From contig NZ_QGMZ01000045.1 of the NCBI RefSeq assembly GCF_003173335.1, positions 1 through 38,662 on the forward strand: a stretch of 38,662 bases of DNA, in the 5' to 3' direction. Positions 4,635 to 28,964 of this stretch are shown piece by piece. The notes below the pieces were generated by a model. The model was not told the origin of the DNA, searched no databases, and saw only the letters and a list, made by a program, of their open reading frames with translations. Numbering within the stretch: the first letter of the stretch is position 1; each line of letters opens with the position of its first letter. A program made the translations under genes and the position numbers. Source of the stretch: Methanospirillum stamsii (GTDB lineage Archaea; Halobacteriota; Methanomicrobia; Methanomicrobiales; Methanospirillaceae).

Positions 4635-5852
4635 ATGATTATTACTGAAGAATTATTTCGTTCAGCCCTTCATCTTACTGCTCCTTGGATTATATCATTA
4701 TTAAAATTTAATGAAGGAGAACGCAGACTTGATATCTGGATTGATTTTCCAGAGGGTTCGAAATTTCCTTGTCCTATATGTAACACATTAGATTGTCCGG
4801 TTTATGATACAAATAAGCGAACCTGGCGTCATTTAGATTTTTTTGAACACCAAACATACCTCCATGCAAGAATTCCTCGAATAAAGTGTCCTCATTGTAA
4901 TGTTCATCAAGTAAATGTTCCATGGGCTAGGGAAAATAGTGGATTCACTCTCTTAATGGAAGCGATGTTTGTTCTTTTCGCACAAACCATGCAAATCTCT
5001 CAAATTGCGAAAAAGTTCGGACTTCGAGATAAACAAATTTGGAGAGTAATTGAACACTATGTTAAAGATGCAATAGAAAAATCTGATCTCTCAGAGGTTA
5101 CCTCAGTTGGAGTTGATGAAACATCCAGACGAAAAGGACATGAATATATTACTGTTTTTGCAAATCTCGATACAGGTCGTATCATTCATATTTGTAAAGG
5201 AAAGGATTCGTCTACCCTAATAACCTTTGCAGATTCGTTGAAATCTCATAAAGGAACATTGGAGCAGATAAGTGATTTTTGTTGTGATATGTCTCCTGCG
5301 TTCATTAAAGGGATAACGGAGACATTTCCTAAATCCTCAATTATATTTGATAAATTTCATGTTATGAAATTAGTGAATGAAGCATTGGATGAAGTAAGAA
5401 GGTTGGAACAGACATTAAATGGATTTTTGAAAAAAACTCGAATGATTTGGCTTAAAAATCCTTCTTCATTAACGGAAAAACAAAAAGAAACATTAGGCAC
5501 TCTTAAGGATATGAATATAAAGACGGTAAGGGCTTATAATCTAAAATTAAGTCTTCAGGGTCTTTGGGGGATGCAGGATATTGAATCAGCCAACGCTTAC
5601 TTTAAAAAATGGTATTTTTGGGCTACTCATTCCAGGATTCATCCAATGGTGAAGGTTGCAAAGACAATAAAAAACCATTGGAATGGGATAATAAATTATT
5701 TCAATAATCGATTCACAAATGGTTTGTTAGAAGGACTTAATAGTCTCATTCAGGCCTTAAAAGCGAATGCAAGAGGTTATCGTAATGATGACAATTTTAT
5801 GACTATGATCTACTTAAGATTGGGACAACTAAAATTTGACTTACCCACTTGA
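4635..5852 (+). CDS. ISL3-family transposase
   Basis: A 405-aa DDE transposase, within the usual ISL3 size range. The N-terminal zinc-binding part has CPIC near residue 46 and CPHC near 85, followed by a helix-turn-helix-like stretch (ISQIAKKFGLRDKQIW, about 121-136). The catalytic acidic residues appear to be Asp161 in GVDET, Asp218 in CCDMSPAF and Glu366 in GLLEGLNS, matching the family pattern. The frame is intact and the gene fills the element. No strong ribosome site precedes the ATG, as is common for transposase genes. Its codon use is much more AT-rich than the neighbouring replication operon, which fits a foreign origin. Confidence 0.96.
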   Translation: MIITEELFRSALHLTAPWIISLLKFNEGERRLDIWIDFPEGSKFPCPICNTLDCPVYDTNKRTWRHLDFFEHQTYLHARIPRIKCPHCNVHQVNVPWARENSGFTLLMEAMFVLFAQTMQISQIAKKFGLRDKQIWRVIEHYVKDAIEKSDLSEVTSVGVDETSRRKGHEYITVFANLDTGRIIHICKGKDSSTLITFADSLKSHKGTLEQISDFCCDMSPAFIKGITETFPKSSIIFDKFHVMKLVNEALDEVRRLEQTLNGFLKKTRMIWLKNPSSLTEKQKETLGTLKDMNIKTVRAYNLKLSLQGLWGMQDIESANAYFKKWYFWATHSRIHPMVKVAKTIKNHWNGIINYFNNRFTNGLLEGLNSLIQALKANARGYRNDDNFMTMIYLRLGQLKFDLPT

Positions 5853-6889: not shown

Positions 6890-9457
6890 ATGAATAATTA
6901 TAATATATTAAAGAGATCTTCGATAATTATCGGAGGAATTCTCGCTCTTTTGGTTCTTTTATCTTTTTATATCCGGACGACTCCTGCTTTTCTTGGAAAC
7001 ATCGACGTTCTGATGTTTGTCGGGATGGATGATCCGACCTACCAACTCAGGCGGATAGAACAGGTAATAGCCAATTATCCGAATGTCCCATGGTTTGATC
7101 CGATGACCTATTTTCCCTATGGTCAGCAGATGCATTGGGGACCGCTCTTTCCCTTCCTTGGCGCTACAATCTGTATTCTTGCCGGAGCAGTTACAAGACC
7201 GGAAATAATTTCGGTCTCTCTCTTTTTACCCTGTGTATTGGCTGCACTTTTAGTCCCGATAGTATATCTTCTGGTAAGCCGGGTCGCAGACTGGAAGGCT
7301 GGACTATTTGCTGCATTTTTCATTGCTATTATGCCTGGCCAGTTTTTCAGCCGGTCTTTTTACGGGTACCTGGATCACCATGCCGGAGAAGTTTTTTTTA
7401 GCACACTTTTCTGTCTGTGTTACATCATTGCACTGATGTACTGCAGGAGACATCCGGTTGATATAAAAAAATGGGAGACCTGGAAGATTCCTGCACTACT
7501 CGGTGTCTTGTGCGGTATTTCTTATACATTAGGTCTTGCCCTGATGCCGACGATGCTCTTGTTTGCCCTTCTCGTTGGGATCTTTACTCCTATCTGGTTT
7601 ATCATCCAGCGATCTATCGGTCATTGTGGTGCTTCAGCCCTGCTCATTAATACGGTCACTTTCCTTGTTGCCATAATCGGATTCTTCATTATCGGGATAC
7701 ATGCAGAGGGAGGCCTTAATTATTACACAACCGGCCATCCGGTTGCATATTCCCTTTTAATTCTGGCAAATGTTTTGCTGTTTTTATTTTCGTATGCATT
7801 ACGGGAAAAACCGGTATGGTATTATGTCGGTGCGATTCTGGGCGTTACAGTCCTTGGAATTGTCGCACTTGCAGCACTCATGCCGGATCTGTTTCAGTAC
7901 CTGTTATCAAATGCCGTGGGGTTTTTTGGTTCAAGTGATATTCACTGGCAGACTATCCGGGAAGCCCGGCCCTGGGAATGGGACGATGCATGGAAAACGT
8001 TCAATTATTCGCTGGTTCTGTTTTGTCTGGGGCTTGCGGTTCTGGCATGGCGGATTAGAAAAGAACTCTGTCCTTCCCATGCATTTACCCTTCTCTGGTC
8101 CATAGTAATCCTGTATGCAACCAGTCAGCATATCAGGTACGAATATTACCTTGCCGTTCCGGTTGCAATTCTCGGAGGTATTGCGGTTGGATTTGCTCTT
8201 GACCTGATGAAATTACCCGGTGGGGCAAAACAAGAAAAACCGGATGCAGGTGAACTGAAGACACCGGAAACAAAGAAAAAAATTGAAAAAGGGAAAGGAA
8301 AACACTCCTCAACTCGAAATCAGGGTGATTTTTCACCAATACAGGCTGTTTCATACATCTTTCTCGGGATTGTATTATTATCAGTTCTGCTGTTTTCATT
8401 TGCTGCGATTGGTATGGATCTAAAGTCCGGAGGATACCGGCTCAATCAGGACTGGAGAATGGCTACCGAATGGCTTGAAAAAAATACTCCTGATCCGGGA
8501 ATTGATTATTTAGCCATATATGAGAAAGAAAACTTCACCTATCCGGATAGTGCGTACGGGGTGATGTCATGGTGGGATTATGGTCATATCATTACGCTCC
8601 TAGGTAAACGGATACCAAATGCGAATCCTTTTCAGTATGGCGTGAATGGGCCGAATGGTTCGGCACGGTTTTTACTCACCCAAAATGAGAGTGAAGCAGA
8701 CCAGATACTGGACAATCTGAATACCCGGTATGTAATCACTGATATTGATATGGATACCGGATACCTGAATGCGATTTCAATCTGGGATAATCCGGACGTA
8801 GGAATAGATCCGTACCAGAAACAATTCCTGTTTCCAAATCAGGATGGAAAGACCGGGGTGAATTATTCAGTGCTTACCGATGAGTATTATCACACCATGG
8901 TATCAAGGCTTCACAATTTTGATGGTTCATACATCGAGCCTGGTGAGGTGTATTTCTTAAAATACATGACTCCGGAAAATTCAGGGATTTCCATTCCGGT
9001 TGTCGTTGAAGCGAATAAGACAAGTTACACGGATGGAATTGCACGAATGGAATCATTCAATGCTTCCACAAATCCCGGGTATGATGCCATCCTGGCAAAT
9101 TTTGTCAATACTGATCCGGTAAGTCCGGTAAGTTCCCTTCAGCACTACCGTCTTATTTATGAGTCAGATACCCGGACTACTCCTGCTGACATGCCTGACC
9201 TTCGGTATGTCAAGATATTTGAGTATGTAAAGGGAGCGAAAATTTCCGGAGACGGGGTGCTTGAATTACCCATCAAAACCAACACGGGACGTGAATTTGT
9301 CTACCGGGCAAACAGTGTGAACGGGACGTTTACTGTTCCATACCCGACAGACACGAGTGTCGGAGCAGTTACCGTAACCGGACCATACCGCAATAACATA
9401 ACCGGTGATACATATTCGGTTACAGAGGAACAGGTGAAATCGGGTCTTTCACTCTGA
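6890..9457 (+). CDS. aglB: Dolichyl-phosphooligosaccharide-protein glycotransferase (STT3/AglB)
   Basis: An 855-aa multi-span membrane enzyme that transfers a lipid-linked oligosaccharide to Asn in N-X-S/T sequons of S-layer, flagellin and other secreted proteins, acting on the outer face of the membrane. The N-terminal half has about a dozen hydrophobic segments. Family motifs are present: Asp47/48 in GMDDPTYQLR (first external loop), DHH at 162-164, TIRE at 355-358 (the TIXE motif), and WWDYG at 561-565 (sequon recognition). A Lys/Glu-rich cytosolic loop (about 445-475) precedes the last membrane segment, and a soluble C-terminal domain follows. No other glycan-assembly genes are adjacent, so the donor glycan is made elsewhere. 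Confidence 0.95.
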   Translation: MNNYNILKRSSIIIGGILALLVLLSFYIRTTPAFLGNIDVLMFVGMDDPTYQLRRIEQVIANYPNVPWFDPMTYFPYGQQMHWGPLFPFLGATICILAGAVTRPEIISVSLFLPCVLAALLVPIVYLLVSRVADWKAGLFAAFFIAIMPGQFFSRSFYGYLDHHAGEVFFSTLFCLCYIIALMYCRRHPVDIKKWETWKIPALLGVLCGISYTLGLALMPTMLLFALLVGIFTPIWFIIQRSIGHCGASALLINTVTFLVAIIGFFIIGIHAEGGLNYYTTGHPVAYSLLILANVLLFLFSYALREKPVWYYVGAILGVTVLGIVALAALMPDLFQYLLSNAVGFFGSSDIHWQTIREARPWEWDDAWKTFNYSLVLFCLGLAVLAWRIRKELCPSHAFTLLWSIVILYATSQHIRYEYYLAVPVAILGGIAVGFALDLMKLPGGAKQEKPDAGELKTPETKKKIEKGKGKHSSTRNQGDFSPIQAVSYIFLGIVLLSVLLFSFAAIGMDLKSGGYRLNQDWRMATEWLEKNTPDPGIDYLAIYEKENFTYPDSAYGVMSWWDYGHIITLLGKRIPNANPFQYGVNGPNGSARFLLTQNESEADQILDNLNTRYVITDIDMDTGYLNAISIWDNPDVGIDPYQKQFLFPNQDGKTGVNYSVLTDEYYHTMVSRLHNFDGSYIEPGEVYFLKYMTPENSGISIPVVVEANKTSYTDGIARMESFNASTNPGYDAILANFVNTDPVSPVSSLQHYRLIYESDTRTTPADMPDLRYVKIFEYVKGAKISGDGVLELPIKTNTGREFVYRANSVNGTFTVPYPTDTSVGAVTVTGPYRNNITGDTYSVTEEQVKSGLSL

Positions 9458-23665: not shown

Positions 23666-25618
23666 ATGAAAAAGAGATGGGTAATCCTTGTTTTGTTCTG
23701 TCTGGCATTCCTCTGTGGGATAGCATGTGCAGATGATCGGAATGATGCTACAGATTATACGATTGCAGTGAATGAAGAATTAAATGATACACCGGCATGG
23801 GATAATAACGACGAAGACTTTGATTTCGCTAACCGGGGATTTATGGCCACCGATGATCCCCTTATTATTCCCTCGGACTATCCGGGTGTTGATTCCTGGA
23901 ACATGTCGGCATATGACTTTTTGGAAAATGCCACATGTCCGAATACCATAAATCCGCTCCTCTATAGGCAGGCACAGCTCAATAACATCAACGGGCTGTA
24001 TAATGTCACTGATGGTATTTACCAGGTCAGGGGATATGATGTCACTTCTATGACCCTTGTAAAAGGGGACACCGGCTGGATTGTCGTGGATCCGATGGTC
24101 ACGGTTGAAACTGCACGGGCAGCGATGGATATTGTGAATCAGACCATTGGAGATTATCCGGTAAAAGCAGTCATTTACACGCATCCTCATGTAGATCACT
24201 ACCAGGGAGTGAAAGGAGTAACTACCCAGGAGGATGTTGATGCAGGCAGGGTTGAGATCATCGCTCCGGAGCATTTTATGGAACATGCTCTGAGTGAGAA
24301 TGTCTATGCCGGAAATGCCATGTTCCGGAGGGCGACGTACCAGTACGGAACTCAGCTTCCGAAGGATGCCAAAGGGAATGTTGACATTGGTCTTGGAAAA
24401 ACGCCTGCTATCGGTACGATATCATTGATTCCTCCGACGCTCGATATCACCCACACCGGTCAGCAGGTAACCGTTGACGGTGTTGATATGGAGTTCCATC
24501 TGACAACAAACACCGAAGCTCCGGTGGAACTTGATATCTGGTTCCCTCAAAAGAACGCACTTTTGGTTGCTGAAGACTGTACTGCAACGTACCATAACAT
24601 TCTGACTCTGCGGGGAGCACAGGTCAGAGATCCGCTTGCCTGGTCAAATGCGTTAAAAGAAGTTCTTGAGTTATATGGAGATAAGGCAGAGGTCATGCTC
24701 AGTTCTCACCACTGGCCACGATATGGTAATGATAAGGTCCGTGAAATTCTTGAAAACCAGCGGGATTTGTACAAATATGTCAATGATCAGACGCTGAATC
24801 TCATGAACAAGGGGTATACCATGGATGAGATAGCAAGCATGATTGAGGTCCCGGAATCCCTCAAAGAGTACTGGTATACCTATGGATTTTATGGCCAGAT
24901 CTATATGGGGGTAAAAGCCACGTACCAGAAATACCTGGGATTTTATGATGCGAATCCGATTAACCTGAAACGGGTTCCTCCGGAGGAATATGCACAGGTC
25001 CTGACCGAATACATGGGTGGTGCTGATGCAGCTCTTAAGCAGCTTCAAATCGACTACGATGCAGGAGAATATGAACTGGTAGCCTCTATTGCACATTATC
25101 TTGTATTTGCAGATCCGACCAACATGGCTGCCCGGGAGATAGAAGCTGCAGCCCTTGAACAACTCGGATACCAGTCAGTATCAGGAACTGCCCGGAATGC
25201 ATACCTGATGGCTGCCCGGGACCTTCGAAGCTCTGAACCTCAGAAGTTGTTAGCCAGCGGGATTTCTGATGATATTATGTCTGCAATGACGATGAGTCAG
25301 TTACTTGACTACATTTCAGTCAGGGTAAATGGAGAGAAAGCAAAAGGCCAGGATTTCCAGATAAACCTGATTCTATCAGATAACGGTGATCAGGCTTTAC
25401 TCAAGGTAAAGAATAATGTTCTCGTCTACTATGTGGATGTAACCTCATCAACTGCAGATGTAACGGTAAGGATGCCAAGAAAGACACTTGAACAGCTTGC
25501 CCTTGATCCATCCGTGACACCGGCAGATGTTACAACAACCGGCGATGCAGCGGTATTTGATAAGTTTGTGAACATGCTTGATGTGTTTGACACCTCATTT
25601 AACATTGTTCTTCCCTGA
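23666..25618 (+). CDS. Secreted alkylsulfatase (SdsA/BDS1-type, metallo-beta-lactamase fold)
   Basis: A 650-aa enzyme that should hydrolyse alkyl sulfate esters (such as dodecyl sulfate) to alcohol and sulfate outside the cell. A signal peptide of about 22 residues ends before ADDRND. The zinc site is THPHVDH (His173, His175, Asp177, His178). The second-metal region is VAEDCTATYHNILTLRGAQV, and SSHHWPRYGN follows, all as in SdsA1. A helical dimerisation region precedes a C-terminal SCP2-like lipid-binding domain (about 530-650, MTMSQLLDYISVRVNG). The full architecture is present. There is no clear ribosome site, so the mRNA may be leaderless. The gene is monocistronic. This family is common in bacteria and less usual in methanogens. 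Confidence 0.92.
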   Translation: MKKRWVILVLFCLAFLCGIACADDRNDATDYTIAVNEELNDTPAWDNNDEDFDFANRGFMATDDPLIIPSDYPGVDSWNMSAYDFLENATCPNTINPLLYRQAQLNNINGLYNVTDGIYQVRGYDVTSMTLVKGDTGWIVVDPMVTVETARAAMDIVNQTIGDYPVKAVIYTHPHVDHYQGVKGVTTQEDVDAGRVEIIAPEHFMEHALSENVYAGNAMFRRATYQYGTQLPKDAKGNVDIGLGKTPAIGTISLIPPTLDITHTGQQVTVDGVDMEFHLTTNTEAPVELDIWFPQKNALLVAEDCTATYHNILTLRGAQVRDPLAWSNALKEVLELYGDKAEVMLSSHHWPRYGNDKVREILENQRDLYKYVNDQTLNLMNKGYTMDEIASMIEVPESLKEYWYTYGFYGQIYMGVKATYQKYLGFYDANPINLKRVPPEEYAQVLTEYMGGADAALKQLQIDYDAGEYELVASIAHYLVFADPTNMAAREIEAAALEQLGYQSVSGTARNAYLMAARDLRSSEPQKLLASGISDDIMSAMTMSQLLDYISVRVNGEKAKGQDFQINLILSDNGDQALLKVKNNVLVYYVDVTSSTADVTVRMPRKTLEQLALDPSVTPADVTTTGDAAVFDKFVNMLDVFDTSFNIVLP

Positions 25619-25642: not shown

Positions 25643-25829
25643 GGGTTTGACACATTAAGAGGTTCTTAGGATAAACTAACCGTTTTAACCGTCCGGATGC
25701 TAACTTTAGAAAATTCGTAACATTATCTACACACGAGAGCCCAAATGATTTTCATTTCTCTTCCCTTTTTTCAAAATAATGTTAATTCCCTGCCAAATAT
25801 CTTTTCTTTCCAAAAAACAAATATCGTTT

Positions 25830-26885
25830 ATGCAACATTCTGACCGGGGTGCAATACTGATGGCACTTCTTGCTGCTGCTCTGTTTGGTGCAGTAGTTCC
25901 TGCTTCCAGAATTCTCCTTTTTGATATCGGGCCGGTCACTCTTGCCGGGTTACTATATGTCGGAGCCGGGATTGGAGGGCTCATCATCAGGAGATTAACA
26001 AATCCGGAAGGGAAAAATGAGTCTCCTATCCGGAGAACTGATGTTCCCTGGCTTATTGGAGTCATTGCCTTTGGAAGTGTAATCGGCCCTATCCTCTGTA
26101 TGGTCGGCCTTACTACCACTCCTGCGTCAACTGCGTCTCTGCTCCTCAATGCTGAGCTAGCTTTTACAACTCTAATCGCCGTTATCGGATTTCGTGAACC
26201 TCTCGGAAAAAGGGGAATTTGTGCTATTATTGCAGTCGTATTTGGTGGACTTTTACTTTCGTATGACTCTTCCGGAACCTTTGGTTTTTCCACAGGTTCA
26301 ATCCTCATCATCCTGGCCTGTTTCTGCTGGGGTCTTGACAATAATTTTACCCGGGTCATATCAGGGAAAGAACCTGCCCAGATTGTTATGATCAAAGGAT
26401 TTGTTGCAGGTATTTTTAGTGTCTGCCTGGGTCAGGCCATAGGCGAACCATTTCCTTCCTATGCCATTATTCCGGCGGCTCTGATTATTGGCTGCCTTGG
26501 TTATGGTTTTTCAATCTTTTTTGTTATCCGGGCCATGAGAGTTCTTGGTTCTGCCAGGACTGGGGCATTATTTGCGACTGCCCCATTTATTGGTCTTATT
26601 CTCTCTCTTCCACTTCCGGGTGAAAGTCCGGGCCTTTCGTTACTGCTGAGTCTGCCCCTGATGGCTGTCGGAGCATGGCTTATTGCAACCGAACAGCATA
26701 GCCACCGTCATATTCATGTTGCGATACAGCATGAACACCGGCACAGTCATGACGATGGTCATCATATCCATCATAGTCCGGGTATGGAAGATGTAGTGCA
26801 TGCTCATCCTCATGAACATGAAAAAATTGTTCATGACCATTCCCATACTCCTGACCTTCATCATTTTCATGAACATGATAAGTAG
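25830..26885 (+). CDS. DMT-family (EamA) permease with His-rich C-terminal tail
   Basis: An about 351-aa membrane protein with ten likely spans in two EamA repeats (residues about 8-135 and 150-285). The start at 25830 (MQHSDRG) places the first span normally; an in-frame ATG at 25779 would add 17 mostly polar residues. The last about 64 residues (from EQHSHRHIH) contain 23 His, in HxHxH runs mixed with Asp and Glu, like the metal-binding stretches of zinc, cobalt or nickel transporters. EamA proteins usually export amino acids or metabolites, so the tail suggests export or sensing of a transition metal. It could alternatively be a metal store. The gene stands alone. Confidence 0.88.
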   Translation: MQHSDRGAILMALLAAALFGAVVPASRILLFDIGPVTLAGLLYVGAGIGGLIIRRLTNPEGKNESPIRRTDVPWLIGVIAFGSVIGPILCMVGLTTTPASTASLLLNAELAFTTLIAVIGFREPLGKRGICAIIAVVFGGLLLSYDSSGTFGFSTGSILIILACFCWGLDNNFTRVISGKEPAQIVMIKGFVAGIFSVCLGQAIGEPFPSYAIIPAALIIGCLGYGFSIFFVIRAMRVLGSARTGALFATAPFIGLILSLPLPGESPGLSLLLSLPLMAVGAWLIATEQHSHRHIHVAIQHEHRHSHDDGHHIHHSPGMEDVVHAHPHEHEKIVHDHSHTPDLHHFHEHDK

Positions 26886-27266: not shown

Positions 27267-28964
27267 ATGAAAACAGGTGTTATTCTGATACTTTTCAGCA
27301 TTTTTATGGTGTTACTGTGTATAAATACCGGGTTTGCAGATGATAATATCGGAAAAATTGAGCAGGCATTATCACAAGGTTCCCCTGTTCCTGAAGGAGA
27401 GCTTGAAGCGGTGGGAACCGTAGGTGGTTGCTCGGCAACATTGATTACAGCCAATCTGGTACTGAGTGCAGGACACTGTTTTTGCGACGATTTTGGGAAT
27501 AATTGTAATAATCGTGGGCAATTTACACTCCATGATGTTAGACCCGTTAATAATCCCTCAATCCGCCAGGATATTACCATAGCCGGTGATGTCAGGATTC
27601 ATCCCGAATACGGAAAGAGGGGATGGCTTCGAGAGGATTACTCTGTGCTTGAACTGGATAAGCCGGCATCTTCTGTTGCCCTTGTAAATCCGATTTCCCT
27701 GGAAAATCCCTGGAACATTCCATTTGTAGGCGAAAAACTTACCTTAGTTGGTTTTGGGTACACTGGTGTTGACTGTAAATCTCCATCACAAGGTAAAATG
27801 AAGATGGAAGTTGCTGTTGATGGGAGTGGATGGGGCGGAATCAGTTTTAAAAATGCACAATTACATTCTTGTCCGGGAGATTCCGGAGGGCCAATAATTA
27901 ACAAAGCTGGTCATGTGGTTGGAGTTGCATCCTGGAATCAAGATTCAAGTAGTACCTATCGTCCGACATCATACGCATATAACTGGATTCTTGAAATTCC
28001 TACTCCGAGTTGGTCAGATTGTTCATGGATACCAATTCAGACCGGAGGAATAAACAGCCATGGAAAATCCCAGTATTGTCCTGAAGGAAGTTATCTAACT
28101 GCATTGGACCTGGATGGGGATCGCTCCGCAAGTGATATGGACACTCCGGTGATTGGTCAGGCAAAGTGTTGTAAGATTGAAGGAGCAAAAAGTCAGAAAT
28201 GGGAGAAAAGTGAATGGGTACAGATTGAAACAAAGGGGATAAACAGTCATAGTATGCTTGGATCCTGGTGCCCGCAGGGAAGTTATATCACTGGAATCGA
28301 TCTTGATGCTGCTGCTGGATCCGACCCCATGGATTCACCGGTTATCGGACAGGTCCAATGCTCAAAACCAGCCGGTTATGATACATGGGGCTCAACATAC
28401 TGGATGGATGTTGGTCCTGATTTAAGTCACCAAAAGAAGGACTGGTGTCTTGATGGGGCGTTTATTACTCAGCTTGATCTTGACCGTGTGGCAGGAGATG
28501 ATCCCCATGATTCACCGGTTGTTGGAAAAGCAAAATGTAGCTGTACAAGAGAACAAGTCACTCCTACTCCAACTCCGGCGCCCACTCCTAAAGAGTTCCA
28601 TGCGGAGATTCTGCCATTGTCAACTCAGTATTTAACGAAACCGATCATCCATGAAGACTTAACCAGTGACATTGAACCAGTTGAAACGGATGAAGTGAGA
28701 GTAATTGAACCGGATTTGATAGAATTTAACGGCAATAATGATATAGAAGAAAATATGAACTTACCTGGTTCAGATTATTCGTCGTTTGATCTTTCTGCTG
28801 ATGATCCATTCCTTTGTATTCAGGCATGTAAACAGGATTCTCAATGTGCCGCATGTACATATGTTAAACCCGGAATTCAGGGTGATTCAGCCAGGTGCTG
28901 GCTTAAAAATTCAGTTTCTGAAAAAAAGGAAGATTCATGTTGTTCTTCATGGATTAAACCATAA
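27267..28964 (+). CDS. Secreted trypsin-like serine protease with repeats and PAN/apple-like domain
   Basis: A 565-aa secreted protein. The signal peptide covers about 24 residues (ending GFA-DD). An S1 (chymotrypsin-fold) domain follows, with His70 in LSAGHC, Asp124 in REDYSVLEL and Ser206 in CPGDSGGP; all three catalytic residues are present. Next are three repeats of about 48 residues (254-302, 317-366, 379-426). Each has the pattern GINSH...WCPxGSYITxLDLD...DPxDSPVIGQxKC. A TPTPTPAPTP linker follows, then an acidic stretch and a Cys-rich domain (about 485-562) of PAN/apple type (CIQACKQDSQCAACTYV). Substrate likely extracellular protein or glycan-attached protein. The architecture is eukaryote/bacteria-like, and transfer is plausible. 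An AGAGGTG site supports the start. Confidence 0.92.
   Translation: MKTGVILILFSIFMVLLCINTGFADDNIGKIEQALSQGSPVPEGELEAVGTVGGCSATLITANLVLSAGHCFCDDFGNNCNNRGQFTLHDVRPVNNPSIRQDITIAGDVRIHPEYGKRGWLREDYSVLELDKPASSVALVNPISLENPWNIPFVGEKLTLVGFGYTGVDCKSPSQGKMKMEVAVDGSGWGGISFKNAQLHSCPGDSGGPIINKAGHVVGVASWNQDSSSTYRPTSYAYNWILEIPTPSWSDCSWIPIQTGGINSHGKSQYCPEGSYLTALDLDGDRSASDMDTPVIGQAKCCKIEGAKSQKWEKSEWVQIETKGINSHSMLGSWCPQGSYITGIDLDAAAGSDPMDSPVIGQVQCSKPAGYDTWGSTYWMDVGPDLSHQKKDWCLDGAFITQLDLDRVAGDDPHDSPVVGKAKCSCTREQVTPTPTPAPTPKEFHAEILPLSTQYLTKPIIHEDLTSDIEPVETDEVRVIEPDLIEFNGNNDIEENMNLPGSDYSSFDLSADDPFLCIQACKQDSQCAACTYVKPGIQGDSARCWLKNSVSEKKEDSCCSSWIKP

Follow-up and report, generated by a model that had tools for sequence, protein, structure and literature searches.

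A likely secreted S1-family serine protease of Methanospirillum stamsii with a conserved triple repeat and a PAN domain

What does a methanogen protease do with three repeats and a PAN domain behind its catalytic part, and are the repeats separate units or one domain? The question arises from a gene at 27267..28964 of the window, the 38,662-nucleotide stretch of Methanospirillum stamsii DNA that was analysed (contig NZ_QGMZ01000045.1); this gene and all of its features given below lie on the forward strand. The gene encodes a likely secreted protease of 565 residues, and a purine-rich AGAGGTG stretch lies shortly 5' of its ATG. The N-terminus (MKTGVILILFSIFMVLLCINTGFAD, 27267..27341) is strongly hydrophobic, the 15-mer from residue 5 having a mean hydropathy of 3.39, and likely serves as a signal peptide. 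Orthologues in three other Methanospirillum genomes keep the protease, the three repeats and PAN; from the ORF call, these orthologues and the dN/dS against the locus L014, the gene is real and conserved. The combination of protease, repeats and PAN-like end, which an earlier note had read from the letters of the window, is borne out by the Pfam domains and the repeat scores. No description of the protein or the repeat was found in excerpts of the literature on prokaryotic VMO-I, on archaeal PAN and serine proteases and on Methanospirillum proteases, which is no proof of absence from print.

The protease domain (aa 54-238, 27426..27980) matched Pfam Trypsin with 79.3 bits against a cut-off of 20.6 (E 4.9e-22). 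Alignment with matriptase (3bn9) located the full catalytic triad that the earlier note had claimed, H70 (27474-27476), D124 (27636-27638) and S206 (27882-27884), together with the GDSGGP motif. By motif, the triad was found intact in 5/5 proteins, four archaeal ones and one from the bacterium G805. The domain differs from matriptase and its kin in the residues of the S1 pocket: the matriptase alignment places His where trypsin has Asp189, Thr in place of Gly226 and Asn in place of Gly216. No IVGG-like start was seen by eye, and an attached threefold domain sets the protein further apart. In the relatives, position 189, assigned by spacing from the active Ser, is His in L005 (the same locus as L014), His in L006 (the same as L015, whose protein is identical to that of G206), Tyr in L007 and Ile in L037 (the G805 protein). 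By motif, position 226 is Thr in all four of them, and position 216 is Asn, Gly, Gly and Thr. Asp at 189, the hallmark of Arg/Lys P1 specificity, is absent from the window protein. Since the base of the S1 pocket carries His and not Asp, "trypsin-like" is unsupported as a statement of specificity. The domain is an S1 peptidase, and these residues suggest that it would not be a trypsin by specificity.

The three repeats start at W249, W312 and W374 and occupy aa 249-311 (28011..28199), aa 312-373 (28200..28385) and aa 374-426 (28386..28544). Their pairwise scores of 154, 104 and 119 exceeded every one of 2000 shuffles per pair (maxima 44, 54 and 49), and repeats 2 and 3 are 46% and 35% identical to repeat 1. 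Three repeats had been proposed at a length of about 48 residues; the number stands, and the length gives way to a period of 63 and 62 residues with a W-to-C core of 51-54. The proposed pattern GINSH...DLD...DSPVIG holds in part: DLD is present in all three repeats (positions 281, 345 and 404), GINSH in repeats 1 and 2 only, with DLSH in repeat 3, and the last motif varies (DTPVIG, DSPVIG and DSPVVG). The repeats contain 4, 2 and 3 Cys, in agreement with the claim of two or more in each. When 24 repeats from eight proteins were aligned, half of them (12/24) from four closely related archaeal proteins, 12 columns were invariant (W1, W6, S16, H17, C25, G28, D35, D37, D46, P48, G51 and C55).

No curated model scored above its cut-off for the repeats of the window protein. 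None of the three single repeats matched Pfam at E up to 10, so that the view of the repeats as undescribed by models survived the single-repeat search. None of three domains matched in PHROGs or in NCBIfam, where a fourth gave a chance-like match (E 0.018). A comparison of the window gene with L014, one gene pair treated by a simple counting method, gave a dN/dS of 0.187 overall, 0.067 for the triple repeat, 0.112 for the protease, 0.365 for PAN and 0.402 for the linker. The triple repeat is the most constrained part of the protein.

The triple repeat is rare where it was searched for. The repeat profile found only these three copies in the window's own genome, and in an order-level sample of 150 genomes the triple repeat occurred only there. 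A class-wide search detected it in 4 of 232 genomes, all of them Methanospirillum (4 of the 12 genomes of the genus); it was missing from three genomes of 99% completeness. A peptide-pattern scan of 84,980 species genomes returned 28 matching stretches, of which five loci were confirmed, two in Methanospirillum, two in Chloroflexota and one in Desulfobulbaceae. Searches of phyla, scoring at most 16 candidates per genome, found the triple repeat in 1/400 genomes of the phylum of G232 (G232 itself) and in 2/395 of the phylum of the Desulfobulbaceae locus (G234 and the new G805, which the pattern scan had not returned). It was also found in 1 of 20 genomes of the family of G805 (G805 itself) and in 2 of 9 of the order of G232 (G232 and G233). 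Because of the reliance on peptide patterns and the 16 candidates per genome, further homologues may have been missed. Plasmids and phages gave no match to the triple repeat, plasmids none to the protease or PAN, and no candidate was confirmed in three scans of viral contigs.

The company that the triple repeat keeps differs among these proteins. In the four Methanospirillum proteins it stands between the protease and the linker with PAN. The protein of G805, a bacterium of the phylum of the Desulfobulbaceae locus, is 48% identical to the window protein across a 446-residue alignment and likewise has a protease and exactly three repeats; it differs in lacking PAN and in having 63 residues, against 54, between the catalytic His and Asp. 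In the Chloroflexota proteins L016 and L017, which lack a protease, a lipobox-like signal and two similar stretches unmatched in Pfam, joined by Pro-rich linkers seen by eye, precede the C-terminal triple repeat. In the Desulfobulbaceae protein L018, which also lacks a protease, the triple repeat is followed by a stretch with a sub-threshold CARDB match. Since the triple repeat stands next to an enzyme in some proteins, lacks one in others and can sit at the tip of a stalk, it is most simply read as a binding module, and we infer that it is a portable one.

Are the three repeats independent units? The earlier note had treated each as a unit that may bind calcium, and small Cys-rich, calcium-binding units in a row would account for the acidic residues, as 24/24 repeats keep the two Asp of DLD as well as the one of D-x-P. 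Repeats arranged like beads often vary in number, and exactly three were found in 8/8 proteins, that is in 7/7 genomes, chosen because they matched, and in G805. The repeat cores are separated by only about 8-10 residues, and Pfam matched none of the repeats taken singly. AlphaFold2, given a shallow input of six aligned rows, predicted the whole window domain with a pLDDT of 86.0 and a pTM of 0.84, as a nine-stranded model of three units with three strands per repeat; only this best of five models was confident, the other four reaching 67.5-76.8. With L016 as the first sequence the prediction was poor (pLDDT 68.8, pTM 0.73) and again had three strands per repeat. Independent units are unlikely on this evidence. 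The constant number of three in all eight proteins and the 12 invariant columns make one domain of three units the best reading, and the repeats of the earlier note look like a single threefold domain rather than separate units.

The structure prediction for a shared fold that the earlier note had suggested thus yielded the three strands in each repeat, and the fold matches were all weak. Neither model had a Foldseek match with an E of 0.001 or lower, and a viral structure library likewise gave nothing at E 0.001. The best Foldseek match of both models, the MABP domain 3tow, was not significant (E 0.054 and 0.026, probability 0.35 and 0.28). The best VIA match of both models was the C-terminal part of PCSK9, with Z 4.8 (124 aligned, rmsd 3.6) and Z 4.1 (136 aligned, rmsd 4.0), and Vip3 chains, which presumably contain a beta-prism-like domain, reached Z up to 4.5 with the first model. 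The tool's note cautions that a Z below 5 at 3-9% identity may reflect no more than a common arrangement. The MABP domain forms a prism of three sheets, and the C-terminal domain of PCSK9 consists of three modules about a pseudo-threefold axis. The matches would suit a threefold domain, all of their scores being in the range of common chance arrangements. Sequence searches of the PDB matched only a cadherin entry (E 0.33 with the triple repeat, 2.4 with the single-repeat profile and 0.26 with the triple profile), which was set aside as chance because the match begins in tag-like sequence.

The C-terminal domain of PCSK9, like the domain described here, follows a serine protease, and its VIA matches run over the whole length of both models. 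The threefold domain could by this likeness regulate the protease, as an inhibitory or chaperone-like lid of the kind of the PCSK9 Cys/His-rich domain, instead of targeting it. The likeness ends at 3-9% identity and a Z of at most 4.8, and the PCSK9 protease belongs to another clan. In three bacteria the domain occurs without any protease, and we regard regulation as improbable next to the binding module proposed above.

A more distant relative was suggested by sequence. When six triple repeats were scanned alone, those of L007 and L014 being left out, VOMI (PF03762) was the top Pfam family for five. The L016 triple repeat reached 28.1 bits (E 2.6e-6), above the cut-off of 25; the window triple repeat scored 20.8 bits (E 4.6e-4), L017 23.5, L015 20.1 and L018 16.7 (E 0.0083). 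None of ten reversed or column-shuffled controls matched VOMI. By eye, the repeats of the 1vmo chain share with the window repeats a W, a Cys-Gly turn, a strand and a D-rich turn before the closing C, and the three internal homologous repeats of VMO-I are present in the window protein as well. The window repeats differ in being longer and in having a W-x4-W ... S-H segment.

Other results speak against such kinship. VOMI did not match the G805 triple repeat, any of ten single repeats or, at E up to 0.1, the full-length window protein. A whole-genome search found it in 4/6 genomes at E up to 1, in none of the six above the cut-off and not in the window's own genome or G805; below the cut-off it also appeared in 1 of 14 control genomes. 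Repeat proteins sum weak matches: one of the reversed or column-shuffled controls reached E 6.7e-4 with another family, and the L016 triple repeat alone also matched other families at E 0.0018 and 0.0022. In the reverse search with the profiles built here, hen VMO-I did not stand out from shuffled sequences: by best domain, 2917 and 3267 of 20,000 shuffles scored as high. The structure 1vmo was not among the matches listed by Foldseek and VIA for either model, which neither shows nor excludes a different fold. Genuine, if distant, membership of the triple repeat in the VMO-I (VOMI, beta-prism) family, which would make it a prokaryotic relative of a domain of the animal extracellular matrix, is a tentative idea that we think somewhat more likely wrong than right; it overlaps with the best explanation and adds kinship to it. 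Excerpts of published work describe VMO-I as a beta-prism thought to interact with carbohydrate (PMC4904793, PMC8878817) and as probably carbohydrate-binding (PMC6299612), and a table excerpted from a 2014 paper places VOMI under invention in extracellular-matrix evolution (PMC4224354).

The linker (28554..28736) begins with a TP-rich part, the TP stretch of the earlier note being found at about aa 432-441, and evolves fast (the dN/dS of 0.402 applies to aa 429-490); one of the three orthologues in other Methanospirillum genomes retains the TP stretch. The claimed PAN-like end proved to be a PAN_4 domain (PF14295; aa 498-547, 28758..28907), with 59 bits against a cut-off of 27 (E 4.8e-16). Its match is well above the cut-off, and the domain itself shows nothing unusual. 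Of 231 genomes in the archaeal class, 11 have a PAN_4 match; the domain lies within the frames of all four archaeal repeat-proteases and not in that of G805. In G210, the contig with the protease gene also carries, some 6 kb away, a 433-residue frame (L070) with three tandem PAN_4 domains; further copies lie elsewhere, and the genome has 7 PAN_4 matches. In another Methanospirillum, G209 (L061, 1486-1701, forward strand), the C-terminal part of a 146-residue frame shares 50% identity over 72 residues with the PAN end of the window protein; no protease or repeat was found in that genome, and the frame is perhaps a truncated remnant.

Could the window gene itself be the degenerating or inactive remains of a protease acquired by transfer? 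The patchy occurrence in 4/12 genomes of the genus and the G209 frame, which has a similar PAN end and neither protease nor repeats, would suit such a fate. The triad is intact in all five proteins compared, and the dN/dS values overall and in the protease are low at 0.187 and 0.112, which leaves decay very improbable. The gene probably encodes an ordinary enzyme with an unusual targeting part.

The history of this combination was examined through the protease and the repeats. In the archaeal class, 47 of 231 genomes had Trypsin-family matches, among them the four with repeat-proteases; these four scored over 81 bits and all others in the class at most 62.8. Among 315 genomes of the phylum of G805, only G805 had a match to the protease domain at E 1e-10, with 56% identity. 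In a weak repeat tree (6 of 21 inner branches starred and 9 open), the third archaeal repeats grouped with the third repeat of G805, their support of 91/89 falling short of the tool's star. Within each Chloroflexota protein the repeats resemble one another (78% in L016 and 65% in L017) more closely than they do those of the window (48%). This pattern would fit a shared ancestor with protease and triplet, and triplets that were homogenised or separately multiplied elsewhere. As the unit is shared with a bacterium of the phylum of Desulfobulbaceae, the protease and the threefold domain were probably passed together between lineages, in either direction. The earlier note's impression of a borrowed combination gained a bacterial counterpart for the protease and repeats, which may have been on the giving or the receiving side.

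The surroundings of the gene were compared as well. Neighbouring genes offered no context: when 11 window proteins were compared with the three other archaeal loci, the protease was the only one to match in two of them. An operon was rejected, since agreement among the neighbours is confined to the closest relative, G210/L014. Promoter and terminator scans stayed at chance level, the promoter type being bacterial and of little weight in an archaeon. Three other genes of the window, all on the forward strand, were recorded in passing. An alkyl-sulfatase-like metallo-beta-lactamase with dimerisation and C-terminal alkyl sulfatase domains, here in a methanogen, is encoded at 23666-25618 and has a signal peptide by eye. 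An EamA transporter at 25779-26885 has a His-rich C-terminal tail (HSHRHIHVAIQHEHRHSHDDGHHIHH...) that is perhaps metal-binding. An ISL3-family transposase at 4635-5852 lies near an AglB-like oligosaccharyltransferase gene (6890-9457).

Taken together, the protein is best explained as a secreted S1-family serine protease that two binding parts, the threefold domain and PAN, direct to a surface, a reading to which we assign a probability of about 0.55. The signal peptide would direct export, after which H70, D124 and S206, residues present in the protein, would cleave peptide bonds; with His at 189 and Thr at 226, the S1 pocket is not that of trypsin and specificity presumably differs accordingly in kind. 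The repeats are predicted to fold together into a closed, Cys-rich, pseudo-threefold beta domain, probably of the beta-prism type; this domain may tether the enzyme to a glycan or glycoprotein by as many as three similar sites, each centred on the invariant Trp, Ser-His and Asp residues. The flexible linker would carry the PAN domain as a second binding part. A bolder version, which we consider doubtful, sees in the triple repeat the founder of an undescribed family in prokaryotes, whose binding domains would be trivalent and braced by Cys; each unit has one invariant Ser-His and three invariant Asp, and the three units would offer equal ligand or metal sites. Such a family would be the prokaryotic branch of VMO-I, would have been exchanged together with the protease and would hold the sheath or glycocalyx of cells, either the archaea's or bacteria's own or those of a partner.

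In an excerpt of a 2024 account of archaeal sheaths, proteases are mentioned solely as something that viruses might use against the sheath (PMC11576556). If the main reading is true, the protein would be a named candidate for an enzyme acting at the surface of sheathed archaea, and a small threefold binding domain that lacks its own curated model would link methanogens and bacteria. If the kinship with VMO-I were also true, an animal egg-coat fold would gain prokaryotic relatives. The interest lies in the domain, which is rare where searched, three-unit in every protein found, strongly conserved and perhaps a prokaryotic branch of a beta-prism family.
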